Source: a virus. From it: a DNA stretch of 33,136 nt. Within the stretch, counting starts at the first letter, position 1. Each line of letters begins with the position of its first letter. The stretch covers positions 1-33,136 of IMG/VR virus record IMGVR_UViG_3300031720_000012; one strand, written 5' to 3'. The position numbers and the translations under genes are program-made. Shown piece by piece: positions 4,776-26,115 of this stretch. The notes beneath the pieces were generated by a model, which saw nothing but the letters and a program-made list of their open reading frames with translations, did not search any database and was not told where the DNA came from.

Positions 4776-4885
4776 CTATAGATCTGGTTGTTGAAATCTC
4801 ACCGATAGAAATGGCTAACATGGTCAACGCGCTGACCGAAGAGGAAAACGCAGCGCTGGCAGAACAAACAGACGACGACGTCTAG
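4772..4885 (+). CDS. Hypothetical protein, 37 aa, acidic
   Basis: ATG overlaps the preceding stop. The product is acidic and ends EQTDDDV. It is the last gene of the plus-strand tail operon, and its TAG stop shares the bases CTAG (4882-4885) with the stop of the convergent cytidylyltransferase-like gene. No family recognised. Confidence 0.45.
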   Translation: MTIDLVVEISPIEMANMVNALTEEENAALAEQTDDDV

Positions 4886-5325
4886 CACTCCGGCCGACTC
4901 ACCCAGATCCGCCGTTTGATTTCCGAACTGGAGATCAACGGCGGATCTGGTCTTGGTATGTACTCAACGCGAATCCCCAGGTCCCTGATCAGCAGCTCTG
5001 CCCTTTTACCCAACTGCCCCATGTAGTCGCGGCGTTCCCAGTCCGAGCCGATGGTGATGATGTCAGGCTTGACCATCTCGATGACCGCGGAGAAATCCTC
5101 ATCCATCAGGTTGCGCACCACATGATCCACGTACTTGCAAGCGCTCAGCACACCACAGCGTTCCCCATAGGACATGATCGGAGCGACTCCCTTGAAGCGC
5201 TCTACGAAGGAGTCCTTGTTAACCGCCACAACTAGCTCATTGCCCAGGATGGCGGATCTTCGGAGCAACTCGACGTGACCCACGTGAAACAGGTCAAACG
5301 TGCCGCCGGTGAGAACTCTAATCAT
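4882..5325 (-). CDS. Cytidylyltransferase-like nucleotidyltransferase
   Basis: A 147-residue protein of the TagD/RfaE-like nucleotidyltransferase fold. The N-terminal GGTFDLFHVGH (residues 7-17) carries the HxGH nucleotide-binding motif, and ISSSEIK (131-137) is the matching C-terminal motif. Length is normal for glycerol-3-phosphate cytidylyltransferases. The reaction is transfer of a nucleotidyl group from CTP or ATP to a sugar or polyol phosphate, giving an activated donor. The substrate cannot be read from the sequence. Overlaps the upstream glycosyltransferase by 4 bases, so it probably supplies or modifies a donor for it. Confidence 0.8.
   Translation of the reverse strand: MIRVLTGGTFDLFHVGHVELLRRSAILGNELVVAVNKDSFVERFKGVAPIMSYGERCGVLSACKYVDHVVRNLMDEDFSAVIEMVKPDIITIGSDWERRDYMGQLGKRAELLIRDLGIRVEYIPRPDPPLISSSEIKRRIWVSRPEC
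4903..4950. terminator. Bidirectional hairpin terminator inside a CDS
   Basis: Arms 4903-4920 and 4934-4950 pair over 17 base pairs with one bulged T (4917) and a 13-base loop. It lies 18 bases past the last tail gene, where transcripts from both strands meet. No strong T-run follows, only TCTTGGT. On the minus strand it lies inside the end of the cytidylyltransferase-like gene and encodes its conserved ISSSEIK motif. Role as a terminator is inferred from position and strength. Confidence 0.55.
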
Positions 5326-5987
5326 TGATGCATTCTAAGGTCATATCCCCGATCCTCCAAAGGTGGGATGGCATCGGGGAAGTGTGGCACCACAGCGTCA
5401 CGCCGAACGTATTGATATTCGTTAAGGAAGCGCAAACAATCCGCCTGGAATCCCCAGTCATCCATCGGACCGTACCGAAGCTTGGTGAAGACGTGGCTGC
5501 TGATCAACGTACAGCCCGTCGCCAGGTGAATGCGGGTATCTCCAGGAAAGTCGATCTCCCTCACGCCGTCCATGGCAAACGCGGGGCAGTAGGCTCCAAC
5601 TACGTTCACGCTAGTTTCTTCCACCACTTCAAGCAGCTTTGGTATCGTGTCGTCCTGGAGTATGACGTCAGCGTCCATCATGAGTACGTAGTCCGCTCTG
5701 TACTCTATCGCGAAGTCGAAGATCATGTTTCGGCCCATGGCGATGTGGCGACCGCGGTTGGCTGAGGTGACCTGCTCACGACCGTCACCGTAGTGATAGG
5801 TCCAGTGGGTGAGGGGCTCGTAGTTGTACTCAATCATGTCCTGATACACACCGCGTCCCCGCTTGTCTACTTCGAGAGCGGCGAAGTACTTGTGCGGCTG
5901 AGGGTTCCGGAGCCACGATCCCCACACACCAGGGTCGGACATAGCGAATGGCGCCAGCGTGGCGCCTATGACGATCGATGGATTCAT
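5322..5987 (-). CDS. Glycosyltransferase, GT-A fold (family 2-like)
   Basis: A 221-residue protein. Residues 1-15 (PSIVIGATLAP) form the usual first strand, and MMDADVI (103-109) holds the DxD motif that binds the metal and nucleotide sugar. The chosen start is the ATG at 5987 because AGAGAGGA precedes it and the longer frame would run into the tRNA. The protein has no clear membrane segment. It is expected to move a sugar from a nucleotide donor to a phage or host acceptor. Forms a pair with the downstream cytidylyltransferase-like gene. Confidence 0.75.
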   Translation of the reverse strand: MNPSIVIGATLAPFAMSDPGVWGSWLRNPQPHKYFAALEVDKRGRGVYQDMIEYNYEPLTHWTYHYGDGREQVTSANRGRHIAMGRNMIFDFAIEYRADYVLMMDADVILQDDTIPKLLEVVEETSVNVVGAYCPAFAMDGVREIDFPGDTRIHLATGCTLISSHVFTKLRYGPMDDWGFQADCLRFLNEYQYVRRDAVVPHFPDAIPPLEDRGYDLRMHQ

Positions 5988-6005
5988 GGGGGATCCTCTC
6001 TTTGA

Positions 6006-6078
6006 TGCGGGGATCGGACTCGAACCGACAACCATCAGCTTATGAGGCTGGTCGCACTACCTGTTGGCGTACCCCGCA
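6006..6078 (-). tRNA. tRNA with anticodon CAT (Met-type)
   Basis: The minus strand folds as a cloverleaf: acceptor TGCGGGG/CCCCGCA (7 pairs), T8 A9, D-arm CGC...GCG with GGTA in the loop, anticodon arm CCAGC-CTCATAA-GCTGA with anticodon CAT, and T-arm GTCGG-TTCGAGT-CCGAT. It lacks the GGG/CCC pairs of initiator tRNA, so it is an elongator Met or a lysidine-type Ile tRNA. Oddities: one C-A mismatch at the base of the anticodon stem, a U1-A72 end pair, U at the discriminator position, and no encoded CCA. Confidence 0.88.
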
Positions 6079-6163: not shown

Positions 6164-7783
6164 TCACGGGTTTCGGAGCTTGGCGACCAAGTCGTAGATG
6201 CCGTGCAGATCGTCGATTGTGCTGTTGATGGAATCCAGCGCCTTGCGCCGAAAATCCTCAACGGGCGGAGTCACAACCGGCGGAGGCGTGACGACCGGGG
6301 GGACCGTGGGATCCGGCGCTGGTGCGGGCAGCGTCGAAGGGATCGGGATGAGCTTCGCCCACGTCAGCGGACCGACCTTGCCGTCCACCGCAAGACCGTT
6401 GGCTGCCTGGAACTTCTTCACCGCTTCGATGGTCGGTCCCTCGTAGAGACCATCCGCCCACGCCGGACCCGCGGGAGCGAACCCTAGCGCCTGAAGGCGT
6501 TGCTGAATCCGCTTGACGTAGGCCTGCTCAGCGGGAGTGTAGCCGCCGTGGGACTCTGCCGGGCCGTCGATGTCGCCGAAGTACTCACCGGCGGGTAGCG
6601 GGAAGTCGTCGCCTGTAGGCGGAGTAGTTCTCACAGGTGGCGGAGATCCGGCGTACTTGGCCAGCAGGATGTCACAGTGCGACTCGTTGGATGCCAGGTG
6701 GATGTGGTTGATATGCGCGGTGACTATCTGAGCGTTGTAGAAGTTCGGGCCGACCACGGCAAAGTTCTTGACGTAGAAACCGTTGTCGTCAGCGTATGGC
6801 GTGGTGTGGATGAGTTCGAGCAGATTGTTCGAGTCTTCGAGGATCAGGCGAGAGGCTGCCTGCATAGCGCGCTGCCCGGTTTCGTCCATGGTTCCCGCCA
6901 CGTCGAGCGCGCCAGCGTCGCCCGTGTTCTCATGGTAGTCCGCATTGGAGTTACCGCGGTGCGCTGAAGTAATGAACAGCTTCGCGAGGAGATCCGCGGG
7001 TAGTCGATGTTCGAGGTAGGTCTTGAGCTTGCTGGCCACAGAGTCCATGACCGAGTTGTCAATGAAAGCGATTCTGAGCGTGCCCACGCTGGTGTTACCT
7101 CCGGATGTAGGTGGGGGTGTGGTGGTAGAGAGTGGTCGTCGGGTGATCAGTCGGCGAAAGCCAGCTTCCGTGCCCTCGAACGCGTTGGCGTCGCCCTTCT
7201 GACCATCGTTGAAAATAGCGTCAGAGCAGTACTGCCAAATCACGGGCATGCGGCCGGAGTAGGGAGTCCAGCCCGGCCCGTTGGCGCCGGAGTACATTTG
7301 CTCGTACTGACGGCTTGCGCCGGAACCGTTGTAGTTGGCGTTCCACAGGGGGCGCCCGTCATCGGGGTAGCTGTTGCCGTACTGGCCTTTGGAGACATAG
7401 ATGATGGCCGGTTTGCCGGTGATCGCTTCCAGTGCGTCCGCCATCTCTTTGCCGATGTTGGGCGCCACATCGTCATACGGCCACTTCTCCAGGTCTACTT
7501 GCCAGAAGAAGTCCGGGTGAGACAGCAGCCAGGGTGCGGTGTCTCGGACGAACTGGACCGCGGTTGAAGCCTGGACACTGGCACTGACCCCCGTACGAGG
7601 TACCACATAAGCGCCGAGAAATGGAACACCCTGATCGCGAGCCGAAGCAAGGACCGAAGCCATGTTCGTGTGCTTGTAGATGCCGTCTGGATCTTGCTCC
7701 GTAGCCTTGTGGGTGACAAAGCTCAGACCTCCGAAGTTCCGTACAGCAGTGAAGTCACTGCCGTCATAGCCAAACAGAGTCAT
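6164..7783 (-). CDS. Endolysin: GH25 + M15-like + PG-binding
   Basis: A 539-residue peptidoglycan hydrolase released at lysis. Residues 1-215 are a GH25-type lysozyme (FGYDGSDF at the start, acidic pair in QVDLEKW at 97-99, QYCSDAIF near the end). Residues about 235-375 look like a zinc carboxypeptidase of the M15 type, with SAHRG (273-277), the Asp in GALDVAG, and HINHIHLA (357-364) as likely metal ligands. Residues about 415-480 are a PG_binding_1 domain (IQQRLQALGF, DGKVGPLTWAKL). Pro/Thr-rich linkers separate them. No signal peptide, so a holin or other exit route is needed. The last 30 residues form a helix of unknown role. Confidence 0.85.
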   Translation of the reverse strand: MTLFGYDGSDFTAVRNFGGLSFVTHKATEQDPDGIYKHTNMASVLASARDQGVPFLGAYVVPRTGVSASVQASTAVQFVRDTAPWLLSHPDFFWQVDLEKWPYDDVAPNIGKEMADALEAITGKPAIIYVSKGQYGNSYPDDGRPLWNANYNGSGASRQYEQMYSGANGPGWTPYSGRMPVIWQYCSDAIFNDGQKGDANAFEGTEAGFRRLITRRPLSTTTPPPTSGGNTSVGTLRIAFIDNSVMDSVASKLKTYLEHRLPADLLAKLFITSAHRGNSNADYHENTGDAGALDVAGTMDETGQRAMQAASRLILEDSNNLLELIHTTPYADDNGFYVKNFAVVGPNFYNAQIVTAHINHIHLASNESHCDILLAKYAGSPPPVRTTPPTGDDFPLPAGEYFGDIDGPAESHGGYTPAEQAYVKRIQQRLQALGFAPAGPAWADGLYEGPTIEAVKKFQAANGLAVDGKVGPLTWAKLIPIPSTLPAPAPDPTVPPVVTPPPVVTPPVEDFRRKALDSINSTIDDLHGIYDLVAKLRNP

Positions 7784-7798
7784 GCATCAATCCTATCA

Positions 7799-8710
7799 TC
7801 AGTAGTGGGATCCCCACCGTTTACCGTAGATCTCCCCTGAGGCGGTCAAGGGTACACCCATGAACTTTTGCGTCAGGCACTCACCATAGCAGCGCGCCAC
7901 ATCCTCCGCCTCATCCTCGCGAGCTTCCCCGATGGCCTCATCATGCACCGCCATCAACAGTGTCTCCGCGTACTTGGTGCGGGAGATCCGGAGTAGTCCG
8001 ATGGCCAAGACATCTCGGGCTGTGGACTGGACGATGTAGTTCACACCAGAGTAGGCACGATCCGCATCGACGTAGAGAGTTCGGCCAAAAGGTGTAGTGA
8101 CCGAGCCAACCTTGCCGTAGCACAGGCGCTTGATCTGGCTCTCGATCGACGCACGGTCCTTCTCGTCCTCTACTCCCCACAGTTCCTTCCTCAGTTGTTT
8201 GTAGACATACTTCTGCCGCGAATTGAAAGCTTGATCCAGAACATGCTCTGTAATCTCATTCTTGTAGTCCGTGAGTGCTGGCAGCGACTCGCGGTATAGC
8301 CGGGACGTGCGCTGTGCGTCTTCCAATGGGACACGAGCCTGCTCACTAATCGCCTTTGCTCCACCCCCGTAGACAGAGCAAAAGCCAGCAACCTTGGCCA
8401 GCTTGTATTTCTCAGGATCAGCACTTTTCCAGTCATCGAAGCCTTTCGGCTTGCCGTACATGGCGAGGCACGTGACCTCGTGCTGGCTCTCGCCAGCGAA
8501 CGCAGCGTCGATCATCGATTGCTCACCGGCCAAGGCGCCGATGATTCTCATCTCGACCTGATCCATGTCGGCGCCCACCAACAGGTACCCGTCCGGAGCG
8601 ATGATGCAGTTACGAACCGCCTTGGCGCCGAGCAAGTCATCGGGGTCGAAGAGATCATCTTCGTCCTCGATCAGCTCATCATCTATGACGTCGTATTCGT
8701 CAGTCACCAT
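7799..8710 (-). CDS. DNA polymerase I, polymerase (C-terminal) half
   Basis: A 303-residue product with the palm and fingers of a family A polymerase. Motif A is ADMDQVEMR (47-55, catalytic D48), motif B has K106, F110 and Y114 in AKVAGFCSVYGG, and motif C is VHDEA (255-259, catalytic D257). NYIVQSTARDV is also as expected. It starts with about 28 very acidic residues and then joins at AVRNCIIAPDGYLL, the position just before motif A. The exonuclease half is a separate upstream gene (9080-10282), with two small genes between. Phe at the F762 position predicts discrimination against dideoxynucleotides. Confidence 0.9.
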   Translation of the reverse strand: MVTDEYDVIDDELIEDEDDLFDPDDLLGAKAVRNCIIAPDGYLLVGADMDQVEMRIIGALAGEQSMIDAAFAGESQHEVTCLAMYGKPKGFDDWKSADPEKYKLAKVAGFCSVYGGGAKAISEQARVPLEDAQRTSRLYRESLPALTDYKNEITEHVLDQAFNSRQKYVYKQLRKELWGVEDEKDRASIESQIKRLCYGKVGSVTTPFGRTLYVDADRAYSGVNYIVQSTARDVLAIGLLRISRTKYAETLLMAVHDEAIGEAREDEAEDVARCYGECLTQKFMGVPLTASGEIYGKRWGSHY

Positions 8711-8892
8711 GAGAACTTGTCATCCAGGTAGTGATCGTAGACAACCTCGTGAATCTCGTGAAGTTCCTTCAGAGTTGAATACGAACACCACCACGAGCAG
8801 TTTTTACACGAAACCTGAAGCTCGGAACCATCACAATTATCCGGAACCGCTTGGATCGTAAAGCTCTTGAGCCACGGCAATAGTTCGCTCAT
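8704..8892 (-). CDS. Small CxxC protein inside split pol, copy B
   Basis: A 62-residue protein with Cys19, then SCKNCSWWC as a likely zinc site. It ends VYDHYLDDKFSW. It is a paralog of the adjacent 63-residue gene: both have W-x(2-4)-F near the start, a central CxxC-x-W and the tail YDHYL(D/E)DKF. Overlaps the upstream copy by 4 bases and the polymerase half by 7, so it is translated with both. The function is not known. Pairing with the split polymerase suggests a role in joining or regulating the halves, but this is inference. Confidence 0.65.
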   Translation of the reverse strand: MSELLPWLKSFTIQAVPDNCDGSELQVSCKNCSWWCSYSTLKELHEIHEVVYDHYLDDKFSW

Positions 8893-9080
8893 TGGAACTT
8901 GTCCTCCAAGTAGTGATCGTAGAGCTTTTCAAACACGTCTTCGAAGTTGACCGTGCATTCGTCCCATTTGTACTCCCAGTGGCAGGCAAGGCATTTGACC
9001 ATGAGATCGCAATCATCTCGGGCGATGACATCGAAGTTTTCTGCCCACGAGGGTGCCTCTCCGCGATTCATCCAACTCAT
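8889..9080 (-). CDS. Small CxxC protein inside split pol, copy A
   Basis: A 63-residue protein with Cys24, KCLACHWEYKWDEC as a likely zinc-binding loop and the tail LYDHYLEDKFQ. Paralog of the next small gene (8704-8892), and the DNA of the two 3' ends is also alike, so a tandem duplication is likely. Its ATG overlaps the TGA of the exonuclease half by one base. Not recognised as any HNH or other nuclease. Confidence 0.65.
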   Translation of the reverse strand: MSWMNRGEAPSWAENFDVIARDDCDLMVKCLACHWEYKWDECTVNFEDVFEKLYDHYLEDKFQ

Positions 9081-10282
9081 CAGTCCGCCTTAGTGCTTGG
9101 TAGTTGCTGGAAGGGAGGCTTAGACACCGACATGCGCGACGTGCGGGCCGCGTGAGTGTTGATCGAGGCGTGGATTCTGTCGTCGCTATCCCGGATTCTC
9201 AGCATGGCGTCAGCGTAACTCTTCTTACGTTTGGACATCTGTTTGACGGTTCGAATCTTGCTGGCCAGCTCCCCGGCCGGACCGCCAGCGTTGGTCAGAT
9301 CGCGGAGGACGTCCTTATCGGCGCTCAGTCCGCCCGTCTTCGTTTTCTTGGTAAGATGAGCACCGGCCGCTCGCAGCGCGGCAACAACCTGCTTCGGTGC
9401 ATTAGGATTCGTGAGCCCCATTGCCTGGAGTTCAACCATACCCAGTTCGATCTCCCTGGTATACGAATCCGATAGTTTTTGCGTGTAGTCCGCATCGATC
9501 ATCATTCCCTTGCGAGAGCGACCGTCCATAAAGAGCTGAAGCGCGTGCTCGTACTCTGTGGCGGACATCCACACTCCGTCCACCTCGATCGGCTCAAGGA
9601 CGTGGGGATGAGAGCGCAGGACTTGCCACACGCGGTAGGTCAGGAGAGGGTCTGTTCCGCTGTACGTAAGATACCGATCATCGAACAGGTCGATGTAGCG
9701 CCAACCCTCTTGCAGCTTGATCTTCTTCATCTTGGGCTGACCCTTTTTGGCGCCCGTGGTGTAGAACTGGCCCGTAGGCAGCGAGATCTCTTTGAAGGCA
9801 GCCTTCAGCGCGCGTTCACCATCCGCGGCGGTCTCATCCACGTAATGCACGGCGAGGTCTTCCTTCAGCCGATGCCCCACGCCTCCGTCGAACCGGGATC
9901 GGGAATCCACACGTCGAGACAACAGGCTGGTGTCCACGGTGTTCTCAAGCATGCCCATGCTCTTCTTCAGGTGCGTGTCCACGGCAAGGCAGTCGTGTGG
10001 CGCGTTGTGCATTATCCAGGGGCGTGGCTTCGAGCAGATCCACTCGATGAGACCCATTTCGCGAGCAGGAATGTTAAAAGCTGTTTGTCGGTCGCCGAAC
10101 TGAAACAGCCGTAGCTCCCAGTCCTTCTCGTACGGGTCGAGACCTGTGGCCTCGGTATCCGAAGCGAGAGCACGAGCACCGTAGCGGTCAAGCCAGTTCG
10201 TAACCTCGCTGAGATCCTTCGTGCCCTGGTACGTGAAGATGTCACAGACATCACCATCAATGGTTACTTGGTGTCTTAGCAT
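9080..10282 (-). CDS. DNA polymerase I, 3'-5' exonuclease half
   Basis: A 400-residue product. Exo I is ASDTEATG (D42, E44), Exo II is NAPHD (N93, D97) and Exo III is YSGTD (Y207, D211), so proofreading should be active. Residues about 240-400 form the thumb and the start of the palm: ADYTQKL, KQMSKRKKSYADAML, THAARTSRMSV and PPFQQLP, which is the usual PNLQNIP block. The gene stops six codons later, just before motif A, and the rest is encoded at 7799-8710. Together 703 residues, normal for a phage PolA. No intein residues are visible at the break. Confidence 0.9.
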   Translation of the reverse strand: MLRHQVTIDGDVCDIFTYQGTKDLSEVTNWLDRYGARALASDTEATGLDPYEKDWELRLFQFGDRQTAFNIPAREMGLIEWICSKPRPWIMHNAPHDCLAVDTHLKKSMGMLENTVDTSLLSRRVDSRSRFDGGVGHRLKEDLAVHYVDETAADGERALKAAFKEISLPTGQFYTTGAKKGQPKMKKIKLQEGWRYIDLFDDRYLTYSGTDPLLTYRVWQVLRSHPHVLEPIEVDGVWMSATEYEHALQLFMDGRSRKGMMIDADYTQKLSDSYTREIELGMVELQAMGLTNPNAPKQVVAALRAAGAHLTKKTKTGGLSADKDVLRDLTNAGGPAGELASKIRTVKQMSKRKKSYADAMLRIRDSDDRIHASINTHAARTSRMSVSKPPFQQLPSTKAD

Positions 10283-11279
10283 CGCTCACCATCTTCGGAG
10301 ACAGGAACCCTCCTGCACCATACGCCGCTTCCCACACCGTCCACCAGTTCTCGATTATGTACCCCCACGCTAGATTTCTAGCCGCGCGGCCCATGTCCTT
10401 ACGAAGGAACGGATCACGGGCTAGAGCATGGAGATAGTGACCCCATTGGTAGTCTTTCTTGACAAGGTATCCAGTCTCGTAGTGGGCGACAAACTCTCGA
10501 TATGGCCCGACGTCAGAGGCAATGACAGGGATTCCAAGGGCCGCATACTCAAGAGCTTTGAGTGGAGACTTGGATCGGTTAAATCGATGATCCCTAAGCG
10601 GCGCAAGACCGATGTCAAAGTCGATAGCGGACCAGAGAGCACCAACCGTGTCCGTCCATGGTGTGTGACGGTAGCGACCATCCAGTCCGAACCTCGACCC
10701 GTAGGCCTCTCCAATGTCATGAAATTGGACGTCGCGGTTACGGTGCAAGAATCTCTTGACATGCGGGGATACCTCTTTCCAATCCATGTCGTGTGTGGCC
10801 GAGCCTGCCCATCCGACCGTCAGCGCTGGCGCTGTGGTGCGCTCGAATTCGAGCAGCGACTTAGGGACCGTGTTGGGGACGATGTACACCCGGGGGTTGA
10901 GCTTCGAGACCAGCTCGGCGAGTTGCATCGTGGAGACCGTCACGGCGTCCGCACACTGGATGTTGCGCTTCAGGTTCGCGCGGATGTGTGCCTGCTCGTA
11001 AAAGGCGTAGCCAGGGTTCGAGGGATCGAGGTTGAGCAGGTCGTCATCAAGCTCATACACGCGGTAGATGTCGCTGCGCTTCTGCCAGGTCTTGGATGGT
11101 CCATCCTGGCATATACGTTGGCCCACAACGATATCGGGCTTGTCCCAACCATGATCGTAGGCCCACACCACACCCACACGCGTCTCGTGGCCGTGCTTGG
11201 CAAGCTCATCGAGCGGCATCTTCATCCGGTAGAACCAGCACCCATCACGGACAGACGCGGACCAGCCGAAGATCTTCAC
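10257..11279 (-). CDS. Glycosyltransferase, GT-B fold (GT1/GT4-like)
   Basis: A 340-residue protein with two Rossmann halves. The N-terminal half starts MKIFGWSASVRDGC and contains AVTVST and VYIVPNTV, the usual link region. The C-terminal half has TVGWAGS and then KSPLKALEYAALGIPVIAS (from residue 236), the donor-binding E-x7-E-type loop of GT4 enzymes, followed by GPYREFV. It overlaps the exonuclease half by 26 bases. Acceptor and donor are unknown. It is the second glycosyltransferase of the window, and unlike the first it is embedded between replication genes. Confidence 0.8.
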   Translation of the reverse strand: MKIFGWSASVRDGCWFYRMKMPLDELAKHGHETRVGVVWAYDHGWDKPDIVVGQRICQDGPSKTWQKRSDIYRVYELDDDLLNLDPSNPGYAFYEQAHIRANLKRNIQCADAVTVSTMQLAELVSKLNPRVYIVPNTVPKSLLEFERTTAPALTVGWAGSATHDMDWKEVSPHVKRFLHRNRDVQFHDIGEAYGSRFGLDGRYRHTPWTDTVGALWSAIDFDIGLAPLRDHRFNRSKSPLKALEYAALGIPVIASDVGPYREFVAHYETGYLVKKDYQWGHYLHALARDPFLRKDMGRAARNLAWGYIIENWWTVWEAAYGAGGFLSPKMVSDAKTPSNH

Positions 11280-16616: not shown

Positions 16617-16793
16617 ATGAAAGCACGATACACCGCCCAAACGACTGTCCAGCTTACCCCGGAGATGCGCAAGTGGCTGGAAGACCACGCTGAGGCTACC
16701 GATCAGAAGCTGGCTGACTCCATCCGCGAGATGCTCAACCGCGGCATCAGCGCCCACCAAAGCGACACAGCGAAAGCGAGGCAGCTTCCGTGA
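16617..16793 (+). CDS. Ribbon-helix-helix regulator, 58 aa
   Basis: Arc/CopG-type fold: strand ARYTAQTTVQLTPEMRKWLE, then helix and SIREMLNRGI. Such proteins dimerise through the strand and bind the DNA major groove. The start at ATG 16617 has TAAGGAG at the right distance; the longer frame from 16506 is not needed. It overlaps the primase gene by 4 bases and follows a palindrome, so it probably represses its own operon, and perhaps the divergent one. Confidence 0.75.
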   Translation: MKARYTAQTTVQLTPEMRKWLEDHAEATDQKLADSIREMLNRGISAHQSDTAKARQLP

Positions 16794-18694
16794 CAATCTC
16801 CCCCATAGCTGGCTCTCCGGCCAATGTGCGGGCGATGTGGGAAAAGGGGTACATCGTCGTACCTCTCAAGGACAAATCACCCGCGCACCTGGGCAAACGC
16901 TGGCAGGACCGCGCACCAACCAACCTCGCCGAAGCTCTCGCGCTGTTCCGTGAGCATCCGGGGGACATCGGCATCTTCACCCCTGCCTCCGGCCTGCTGG
17001 TCGCTGACGTGGACGTCAAGGACGGCAAACAAGGCCGACGCACCTGGGCGTCCCTCATCCGCACCCTAGGCCCCAATGGCGCGCACACCGTCGAGACACC
17101 CTCGGGCGGGCTGCACGCCATCTGGCGGATGGCTCCCGGCCACGAACGAGACAACGCGATGCTAGGCCCTGGTGTTGATGTCAGAGCGGCCTCAAACGGC
17201 GTGGTGGTGGGTTACCACACCCCCGACCATTATCCGAGCCTCCACGATCTACTGGTACCCCCCGAATCATGGTTGGATGAGTTCGCCCGCAACACCCGCG
17301 CACCCATCGACGTGGGCGAACTGGAGTACAGCGACTTCGAACCATCAGCTCAGCTTCTGATCTTGACTGATGAGTGGGACGGCGTGGATCACGATCGCTC
17401 CGAATGGTTCTACAAGGTCGTCTCGCTGGCCTACGACGAGGGCGCCCTATCGGGTGACTCTGACTGGCTGATGTCCCGCCTATGCGCCGAGAAGTACGAA
17501 GAGCGTGGTGATCTTGAAGAGCAGTTCGCGCTGTGCTGGCTCAAGGCCGAACGAGCCAAGCGCACCATCGACGCCAAGCCCGGGGGTGGTATCGGTCTAG
17601 CCCCAAAAGGCGCAAAGCTCACCGAACGTGAGAAAGCGGCTATCAACGATCCCAAGACCTTTCATGGCAACTTCATCGTTCGGTGTCTCGACGACGTTGA
17701 AGAGCAGCCCACTCTGTGGCTGTGGGACGATCGCATACCGCTTGGTGAGCTAACCCTGATCGCAGGTAGAGAGGGTGTGGGTAAGAGCACTTACCTTGCT
17801 CACCTGGCAGCGCGCATCACCAACGGCACGGCGCAGGGTGATCTCTACGGCAAGAGGAAGGGCGTGCTCTATATCGCCCAAGAGGATTCATGGTCTCGAA
17901 CCATCAAACCTCGCATGATGGCCGCGGGTGCTGACATGAAGAAGGTCTTCTATCTCGATGTGGTGGAAGACGGTACGCCGCTTACGATTCCGGAACACTC
18001 TGAGGTTTTGGCGTCGCTGGCCACCGACTACGACGTGGCGGCAATCATGTTCGATCCCATCGTGTCGGTGATCGACGATGAGATCTCGACGGACAAGACT
18101 CGTGAGCTGCGTACGGCATTAGAGCCATTGCGCAAGGAAGCCGAGCGTGCCGGGGTGGCATTGCTTGCCCTGGTACACCACAACAAGACGCCAGGCACCG
18201 ACGCCAACAGCAAGATAGCCGGGGCAAGAGGGTGGACCGAGGTGGCTAGGGCCATCATCCAACTGGTCCAGAACCCTGAGGATGAGGACACCTGCATACT
18301 CAGCTCGACCAAGAACAACCTTGGGAAGCTTCATCGCAATCACCTGCTGTATGAGATCAAGGGCAAGAAGTTCTCGAAAAACGGGCAGGAGATCAGGACG
18401 TCGCGGATCGAGTTCACCGGCTCGTCCACCATCTCAGCTCAAAGCGTCTTAGAGGGTCGAAACCATGGAAAGCGTGGTCGTCCGGTGACCGAAGAGACCA
18501 AGACATTGATCGAAATCATTAAGGACAAAGGGCCGATTTCTACCTCAGAGTTGGCTAAAACGACCAACACTAAATACGAAGCGGTCAGAAAGACCCTTGT
18601 CAGGGCAGAAGCCCGACAGGATGTCAAACGGGATGTTGATGGTCATTGGGTTGTCGGTGATCCAATCCAGGATGAAGTGGACTCGGACAACTAG
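16790..18694 (+). CDS. PrimPol-helicase replication protein
   Basis: A 634-residue fusion. Residues 10-165 are a bifunctional primase/polymerase domain: GLLVADVDV holds D73 and D75, TPSGGLHAIW holds H109, and GVDVRAASNGVVVG follows. Residues 205-270 form a helical linker. Residues 310-515 are a RecA-like RepA-type helicase: Walker A GREGVGKST (326-334), Walker B AIMFDP (418-423), and HHNK at 463-466. Residues 565-625 form a winged helix with SELAKTTNTKYEAVRKTL. It would prime and open DNA at the phage origin. GTG start overlaps the RHH gene. Ends at a strong terminator. Confidence 0.88.
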   Translation: MTISPIAGSPANVRAMWEKGYIVVPLKDKSPAHLGKRWQDRAPTNLAEALALFREHPGDIGIFTPASGLLVADVDVKDGKQGRRTWASLIRTLGPNGAHTVETPSGGLHAIWRMAPGHERDNAMLGPGVDVRAASNGVVVGYHTPDHYPSLHDLLVPPESWLDEFARNTRAPIDVGELEYSDFEPSAQLLILTDEWDGVDHDRSEWFYKVVSLAYDEGALSGDSDWLMSRLCAEKYEERGDLEEQFALCWLKAERAKRTIDAKPGGGIGLAPKGAKLTEREKAAINDPKTFHGNFIVRCLDDVEEQPTLWLWDDRIPLGELTLIAGREGVGKSTYLAHLAARITNGTAQGDLYGKRKGVLYIAQEDSWSRTIKPRMMAAGADMKKVFYLDVVEDGTPLTIPEHSEVLASLATDYDVAAIMFDPIVSVIDDEISTDKTRELRTALEPLRKEAERAGVALLALVHHNKTPGTDANSKIAGARGWTEVARAIIQLVQNPEDEDTCILSSTKNNLGKLHRNHLLYEIKGKKFSKNGQEIRTSRIEFTGSSTISAQSVLEGRNHGKRGRPVTEETKTLIEIIKDKGPISTSELAKTTNTKYEAVRKTLVRAEARQDVKRDVDGHWVVGDPIQDEVDSDN

Positions 18695-25169: not shown

Positions 25170-25345
25170 AGGATCCCTACAATTCCGCGACGTGGGCAGC
25201 GTATAAACGCTCGTCAGGTGAACGTACCTGGCTCGTAGCTATGGCGCTGGCCAACGGCCTTGCCGACAAGAATCAGGCCAAGCAAACGGTTCGTGGGTAC
25301 CGGATGCCTAAAGGTACATGGGTCTATTCGGTCGTCATCCCGTGA
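25166..25345 (+). CDS. Hypothetical protein, 59 aa
   Basis: ATG with AGAGAAGG upstream. Helical start and a beta end (RGYRMPKGTWVYSVVIP). Overlaps both neighbours by 4 bases. Function unknown. Confidence 0.55.
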   Translation: MKDPYNSATWAAYKRSSGERTWLVAMALANGLADKNQAKQTVRGYRMPKGTWVYSVVIP

Positions 25346-26115
25346 AACTACTGACGATCGACATAGAGAACACTCCTAATGTGAGCTTCAACTGGGAAGC
25401 CAAGGCTATCTATATCCCCCACAAGATGATGATCCAGCACCGCAAAATGCTGTGCTTCGCGGCCAAGTGGCACGGGGATGACCACACCTACTTCTACCGC
25501 GGCAAGGGAATGGTCGAAAAGGCTCTTGAGATGATGTCCGAAGCGGACGCTCTCATAACCTACAACGGGCGCCGACACGACATCCCCATCCTGAACACAG
25601 AGATCAAAAAGGCCGGGCTAACTCCGCCTCCCCCGCCGATCCACATAGACCTGATACAGACCGTGCGCAGCCAGTTCAAGCTCTACTCCAACTCGCTGGA
25701 CTACACATGCAAGTACTTCGGCCTTCCGGGTAAGGAAGAGTCCGGCGGTTGGGAGACGTGGCAGCACATCGCCATGGATGAGTTCATCAAGGACCAGGGT
25801 CTCAAGCCCCCAGCCAATCCCAATCTCGAACCAGCGTGGTTGTTGATGGAGAAGTACAACCGTTGGGACGTCGAGATTACGGAGATCCTCTATGACTTCC
25901 TTCTCCCTTGGATTCCTAATCATCCCAATCGCGGTCTCTTCGGAGAGGCATCCGCGATATTCGGCGAAGCTTGCTGTCCTCGCTGTGGTGGTACCGACCT
26001 CCGGCCGCAGGGCTTTACTTACACTTCCAGTGGTCGCTTTCAGCGATACAGGTGTGCCTCTTGCGGTCGCTGGTCAAAGCACTTTAGCCGTGATCGGTCG
26101 ACTGAGACTAGGTAA
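25342..26115 (+). CDS. DnaQ/RNase H-like exonuclease + zinc ribbon
   Basis: A 257-residue protein with a GTG start overlapping the previous stop. TIDIENTP holds D7 and E9, TYNGRRHDIPIL holds N75 and D80, and YNRWDVEI holds Y172 and D176. These are the Exo I-III sites of a DnaQ-like 3'-5' exonuclease of the RNase_H_2 (PF13482) type. Residues 211-241 add a zinc ribbon, CPRCGG and RCASCGR. It is separate from the exonuclease of the split polymerase. DNA or RNA substrate is not evident. Confidence 0.8.
   Translation: MKLLTIDIENTPNVSFNWEAKAIYIPHKMMIQHRKMLCFAAKWHGDDHTYFYRGKGMVEKALEMMSEADALITYNGRRHDIPILNTEIKKAGLTPPPPPIHIDLIQTVRSQFKLYSNSLDYTCKYFGLPGKEESGGWETWQHIAMDEFIKDQGLKPPANPNLEPAWLLMEKYNRWDVEITEILYDFLLPWIPNHPNRGLFGEASAIFGEACCPRCGGTDLRPQGFTYTSSGRFQRYRCASCGRWSKHFSRDRSTETR

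Follow-up and report, generated by a model that had tools for sequence, protein, structure and literature searches.

A phage family A DNA polymerase encoded in two genes split within the palm, a probable two-subunit enzyme

Family A DNA polymerases such as Klenow, Taq and T7 are textbook single-chain enzymes that typically, though not by strict definition, carry thumb, palm and fingers on one polypeptide. The IMG/VR virus contig IMGVR_UViG_3300031720_000012 (33,136 bases, analyzed over its whole length and here called the window) instead encodes its family A polymerase in two genes, with two small genes between them (Table 1). Is this a damaged gene, a gene interrupted by something that is removed, or an enzyme that works in two pieces? 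A sequence-only reading of the window had described the split and the two small genes, and had proposed that the enzyme either works from two subunits or is joined by something that the insert brings. The gene coordinates and the Pfam and PHROG matches agree with that description of the locus on every point; the two proposals fare differently, as set out below.

Table 1. Features of the split polymerase locus in the window
Feature	Position	Strand	Description
polA-N	9080..10282	-	400 aa; 3'-5' exonuclease, thumb, first palm segment; C-terminus PPFQQLP-STKAD-stop
Small gene 1	8889..9080	-	63 aa; 3' end bears ribosome-binding-like GGAGG of small gene 2
Small gene 2	8704..8892	-	62 aa; paralogue of small gene 1
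polA-C	7799..8710	-	303 aa; palm and fingers; motifs A, B, C
Acidic leader of polA-C	8627..8710	-	28 residues, 14 D/E, 0 K/R
Clade-specific insertion in polA-C	8114..8239	-	residues 158-199; helices 164-178 and 183-197 in model
Direct repeat, first copy	8708..8741		34 bases; 3' end of small gene 2, codes YDHYLDDKF up to polA-C start codon
Direct repeat, second copy	8890..8923		34 bases; 3' end of small gene 1

polA-N matches DNA_pol_A_exo1 (PF01612, E 1.5e-6) and positions 6-134 of the 381-position DNA_pol_A profile (PF00476, E 9e-16), and polA-C matches positions 139-380 of the same profile (E 3.9e-29). The two PF00476 matches abut, so nothing is missing at the seam and the polymerase is complete in two pieces. 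On PHROG 17 the two genes cover positions 656-990 and 993-1233. All three exonuclease motifs (DTE, HN..HD, Y..TD) are present in polA-N, and polA-C contains motif A (DMDQVEMR), motif B (the K106/GGG region) and motif C (HDE). The pair is therefore a family A polymerase with a 3'-5' exonuclease, and it departs from the usual form of the family in that the chain is split between profile positions 134 and 139. The break is as clean as had been claimed, with the exonuclease half ending shortly after PPFQQLP. An AlphaFold2 model of polA-C alone is confident (pLDDT 92.6, pTM 0.86) and matches Taq and Klenow fragments in a Foldseek search (E 4e-13). The acidic leader, also noted earlier, has low confidence in the model and is probably disordered; it is private to the window.

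Aligned to Taq polymerase, the profile of the first half runs up to residue 585 and that of the second sets in at residue 594. The cut (Taq 586-593) therefore falls in a loop of the palm, after the QNIP/QQLP segment and ahead of the IRRAF segment preceding motif A. This position bears on the possibility that the halves act independently, one as a free exonuclease and the other as a minimal polymerase. LUZ24-like phages resemble the window in having proofreading and polymerization on separate genes (PMC3517423), and PHROG families for single halves exist. The cut of the window, in contrast, lies inside the palm and not at a domain boundary; the exonuclease half retains the thumb, the first palm part, the RMS motif and the QQLP strand, which leaves subunit 2 without a thumb of its own. 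We consider independent work of the halves improbable.

The closest cultured relatives of both halves are actinobacteriophages with an unbroken gene, at about 34-36% identity. Microbacterium phage Caron and Streptomyces phage AbbeyMikolon have the closest cultured PolA, as one gene where the window has two. A scan of the genome collection returned only 26-53-residue fragments of the N half, and single window proteins used as IMG/VR queries found nothing. Loci found with two other alignments (A1 and A2) were nearly all unbroken (162 loci), and only a two-sequence alignment (A4, the window N half plus L010, a contig with the same break on its N half and its C half off the contig) reached further split loci. 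The same cut, with both halves present, occurs in 12 other IMG/VR contigs (L170, L171, L173-L177, L216, L218, L219, L221 and L222), which puts the observation beyond chance. With the window these make 13 split contigs from different metagenomes. L172, L178 (the same contig as L010) and L179 have the N half at or near the contig end, and L172 is identical to L171 over the stretch compared. The window terminase has no match in the relatives' contigs, an uninformative result because the search had no positive control.

The catalytic motifs of both halves are kept in every clade member (motif C of L175 lies off the contig). For the two most closely related pairs, both halves have a pN of 0.13-0.15 against a pS of 0.66-0.72, with synonymous sites near saturation; pN far below pS indicates that both proteins are under strong purifying selection. 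Each contig contains exactly two PolA pieces (the C half is matched as two stretches in two contigs). No family B or C polymerase was matched on the clade contigs, which are fragments of genomes, by a search that detected its positive controls. These results concern the possibility that the break is an assembly error, which the sequence-only reading had named, or that the gene is dying, as a single metagenomic contig with a long branch might suggest. Twelve relatives share the cut, so it is not an assembly error, and the motifs are intact and under selection. We give this explanation virtually no credence for the window, and for the clade it is refuted.

In a tree of 59 polymerases, built by a quick method with SH-aLRT support and no bootstrap, the 13 split polymerases form a single clade (SH-aLRT 99) in which the window is a long basal branch. 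The catalytic half of all 13 contains an insertion of 42-47 residues, while the 45 unbroken sequences have 2-3 residues at that place. The split clade also shares a shorter insertion, at residues 166-190 of the N half, but at least one unbroken sequence is equally long there.

Gene fission of a phage polymerase is already known. In the OM43 phages MEP401 and MEP402, PolA is spread over two genes that flank a small one (PMC10580990). As in the window, one gene of such loci encodes the exonuclease plus the first part of DNA_pol_A and the following gene its remainder; a small uncharacterized gene intervenes in some of them. Of the MEP401-type IMG/VR loci (L008-L009, L295-L374), all 76 that could be tested are split; some have gap genes of 40-97 residues, and in many the halves overlap by 17 bases with no gap gene, which leaves no room for an intron. 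Their cut differs from that of the window clade: it falls about a dozen residues nearer the C-terminus, immediately ahead of motif A (..SRYGE / MILNADAK), and the MEP401/402 loci have no tblastn match at 1e-5 to either window half. They are also far away in the polymerase tree, on a very long branch, and their gap protein is not detectably related. Since the window clade branches among unbroken polymerases, two independent origins of the split are likely, as judged from a tree with one MEP-type row.

Two further systems are instructive. Alongside the MEP401-type phages stands the cultured Alcaligenes phage vB_Af_QDWS535 (OK172329, L375), whose two PolA genes overlap by one base; for bench work on a naturally split family A polymerase it is the handiest system. 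In Aeromonas T4-like phages the split gene 43 gives 43A and 43B, whose halves co-purify as an active polymerase (PMC2988022). These resemble the window in having a replicative polymerase in two adjacent genes and differ in being family B and in having untranslated sequence or a homing endonuclease as the insert. As a separate observation, MW202697 (L376) contains a gene between its PolA halves at 1782-1988, annotated in the record as 'R67 dihydrofolate reductase'.

In relatives of the window the first half ends with QQLP-TK[DN]... or similar, followed by 5-16 mostly acidic residues, and the second half starts with [MV][KR]LLS[SA][AD][AT][IV]RRC, in most cases eight residues ahead of the IRRC block. 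Starts and stops are coupled at both lips in most clade members, and the [MV][KR]LL start of subunit 2 is conserved. In the window, polA-N and polA-C share one reading frame, interrupted by several stop codons. Among clade members the phase of one half relative to the other varies, which rules out their joining by read-through or a simple frameshift. The 7-base repeat AAGGCGG stands at both lips of the window in equal phase and might have marked an insertion scar or a splice site; we dropped this idea because it is not shared by the relatives' tails.

The gap might still be an intron, or split inteins might join the halves, with one full polymerase after splicing. Phage polymerase genes commonly carry introns (PMC11878797), and the MEP401 authors considered one (PMC10580990). 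The fractured PolB of jumbo phage MIJ3, which uses a split intein (PMC6892783), resembles the window as a broken gene with a gene between its parts; unlike in MIJ3, we found no intein blocks here and recognized no homing endonuclease among the gap proteins tested. No conserved group I or II intron RNA structure was found at the break in the window locus (no Rfam match at E <= 1) or in eight relatives. Overlapping reading frames tile the gap, subunit 2 starts at a conserved site of its own, and the halves differ in phase from member to member, all of which argues against an intron, as do MEP401-type loci whose halves overlap by 1-17 bases. Seam tails of 5-16 residues are too short for inteins; the window has an N tail of 5 residues and a C leader of 28 acidic residues, Pfam finds only polymerase and exonuclease domains, and no intein N or C blocks are fused to the lips of the break. 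Splicing at either level is very improbable.

Across the clade the gap is 266-1599 bases long and never empty, with one to seven small genes that mostly overlap by 1-20 bases (called as a simple chain of reading frames, not by a trained gene caller). Gap contents differ among relatives and turn over quickly. The gap of L174 encodes a VapB/ParB-like protein (7412-7801, PF23719, E 4e-14), and a protein in that of L218 (5670-6011) is VapB/ParB-like by resemblance, judged by eye. L175 has a SLOG/DprA-like, nucleotide-binding type of protein (7572-7946, PF10686, E 8e-15). Other SLOG/DprA-like proteins are found in or near the gap of L177 (7301-7789, by resemblance only) and L178 (7672-8139, weak). 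Short uncharacterized families also occur, and one family, which we name DELIEE for its motif, is clearly present in nine of the 13 gaps and marginally in L176 (E 0.014).

The split could be the scar of a past insertion by a homing endonuclease or mobile element that was later replaced by other small genes. Such an origin is known for nrdA of phage Aeh1 and is discussed for gene 43 of T4-like phages (PMC2988022), and the quick turnover of gap contents fits it; however, no endonuclease or intron relic was found among those of the 13 gaps that were tested. We regard this origin as plausible, at somewhat below an even chance. It concerns how the split arose and is compatible with a two-subunit enzyme.

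A small protein from the gap could also act as a third subunit or as an assembly factor, by keeping the two halves together or by regulating how they join. In its favor, the gap is never empty, and nine or ten of the 13 gaps contain DELIEE, which is missing from all of about 270 other PolA-region loci. DELIEE is, however, absent from the window, L177 and L218; the two small genes of the window have no relative in any other gap; and many MEP401-type loci are split without a gap gene, so a joiner is not needed in general. A homology between DELIEE and the MEP401 gap protein was considered on the basis of a first comparison (E 0.004, probability 8%), which weakened with more sequences (E 0.02, probability 2%). 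We do not claim it, as one in 100 shuffled controls scored better and the likeness is no better than chance. A general third subunit of this kind is unlikely.

The more specific proposal is less likely again: the DELIEE protein would be a third component dedicated to clamping, loading or gating the assembly of the polymerase, the helical insertion of subunit 2 would dock DELIEE or subunit 1, and the window would have passed this job to its acidic leader or its paralogue pair. DELIEE is predicted to be a two-helix hairpin, the model has no Foldseek match, and the family has no match to the small proteins of the window or to polA-C with its acidic leader. If the proposal were true, the phage would control when its replicase becomes active.

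The gap of the window itself is 369 bases long, close to the 370 or so first described, and successive genes from polA-N to polA-C overlap by 1, 4 and 7 bases, in line with the coupling noted earlier. The two small proteins are paralogues, as had been claimed (34% identity, E 2e-8). Both keep C24, C30, C33 and H56 (small gene 1 numbering), residues that could form a zinc site. No family or relative of small gene 1 was found in Pfam, PHROG or the other collections searched, and small gene 2 is without relatives in INPHARED or IMG/VR. In Pfam and PHROG, small gene 2 has weak matches to PinA, a Lon inhibitor (E 0.02-0.04); they fall below the cut-off and were judged to be chance. The copies of the direct repeat are 88% identical, 182 bases apart and code YDHYLxDKF. 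The repeat before small gene 2 includes the ribosome-binding-like GGAGG, and the corresponding site before polA-C is weaker. A repeat that carries the next gene's ribosome-binding-like site suggests tandem duplication of a gene plus its junction. Because gap contents differ between relatives, the two small genes are probably not joiners. Of the two earlier proposals, that of two subunits stands as likely, and joining by the window's insert is not supported, given genes found in no relative, variable gap contents and MEP401-type loci that are often gapless.

We therefore favor a two-subunit enzyme: with good confidence, the split is a genuine and long-established gene fission whose halves form a non-covalent complex. 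The cut lies at Taq 586-593, in the loop of the palm that links the QQLP block to motif A, and coupled translation of one operon would give two polypeptides. The exonuclease, the thumb and the first palm part would come from subunit 1, and the catalytic residues, the fingers and what remains of the palm from subunit 2. We infer that the two associate non-covalently and that the complex is active, so that the halves very probably dock into one working enzyme, a proofreading replicase. The gap would act as a landing site, and the small accessory genes found there differ from one relative to the next.

We did not find the split clade, its cut site, its private insertion or its cargo-filled gap described in the literature searched. 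A clade that has kept its PolA split in a loop next to the catalytic centre, together with an apparently independent cut a dozen residues away in another lineage, indicates that this palm region tolerates fission in nature. Natural split polymerases are thus on offer for switchable DNA synthesis, and they provide a test case for how enzymes become multi-subunit. Such splits may also account for adjacent pairs of 'DNA polymerase' annotations in phage genomes.

The window contains several other genes of note. An endolysin-like protein with GH25 and peptidoglycan-binding domains is encoded directly downstream of polA-C (6164-7783), so that lysis and replication genes lie side by side on the minus strand. 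A cytidylyltransferase-like gene (4882-6035, PF01467, E 9e-20) overlaps a family 2 glycosyltransferase, and another glycosyltransferase adjoins polA-N (10257-11279); the cytidylyltransferase-like and glycosyltransferase genes may have glycan-related functions. Away from the polymerase locus, the plus strand encodes a Prim-Pol/AAA primase-helicase-like protein (16790-18694) and an RNase H-like 3'-5' exonuclease with a C-terminal CxxC..CxxC region (25318-26115).
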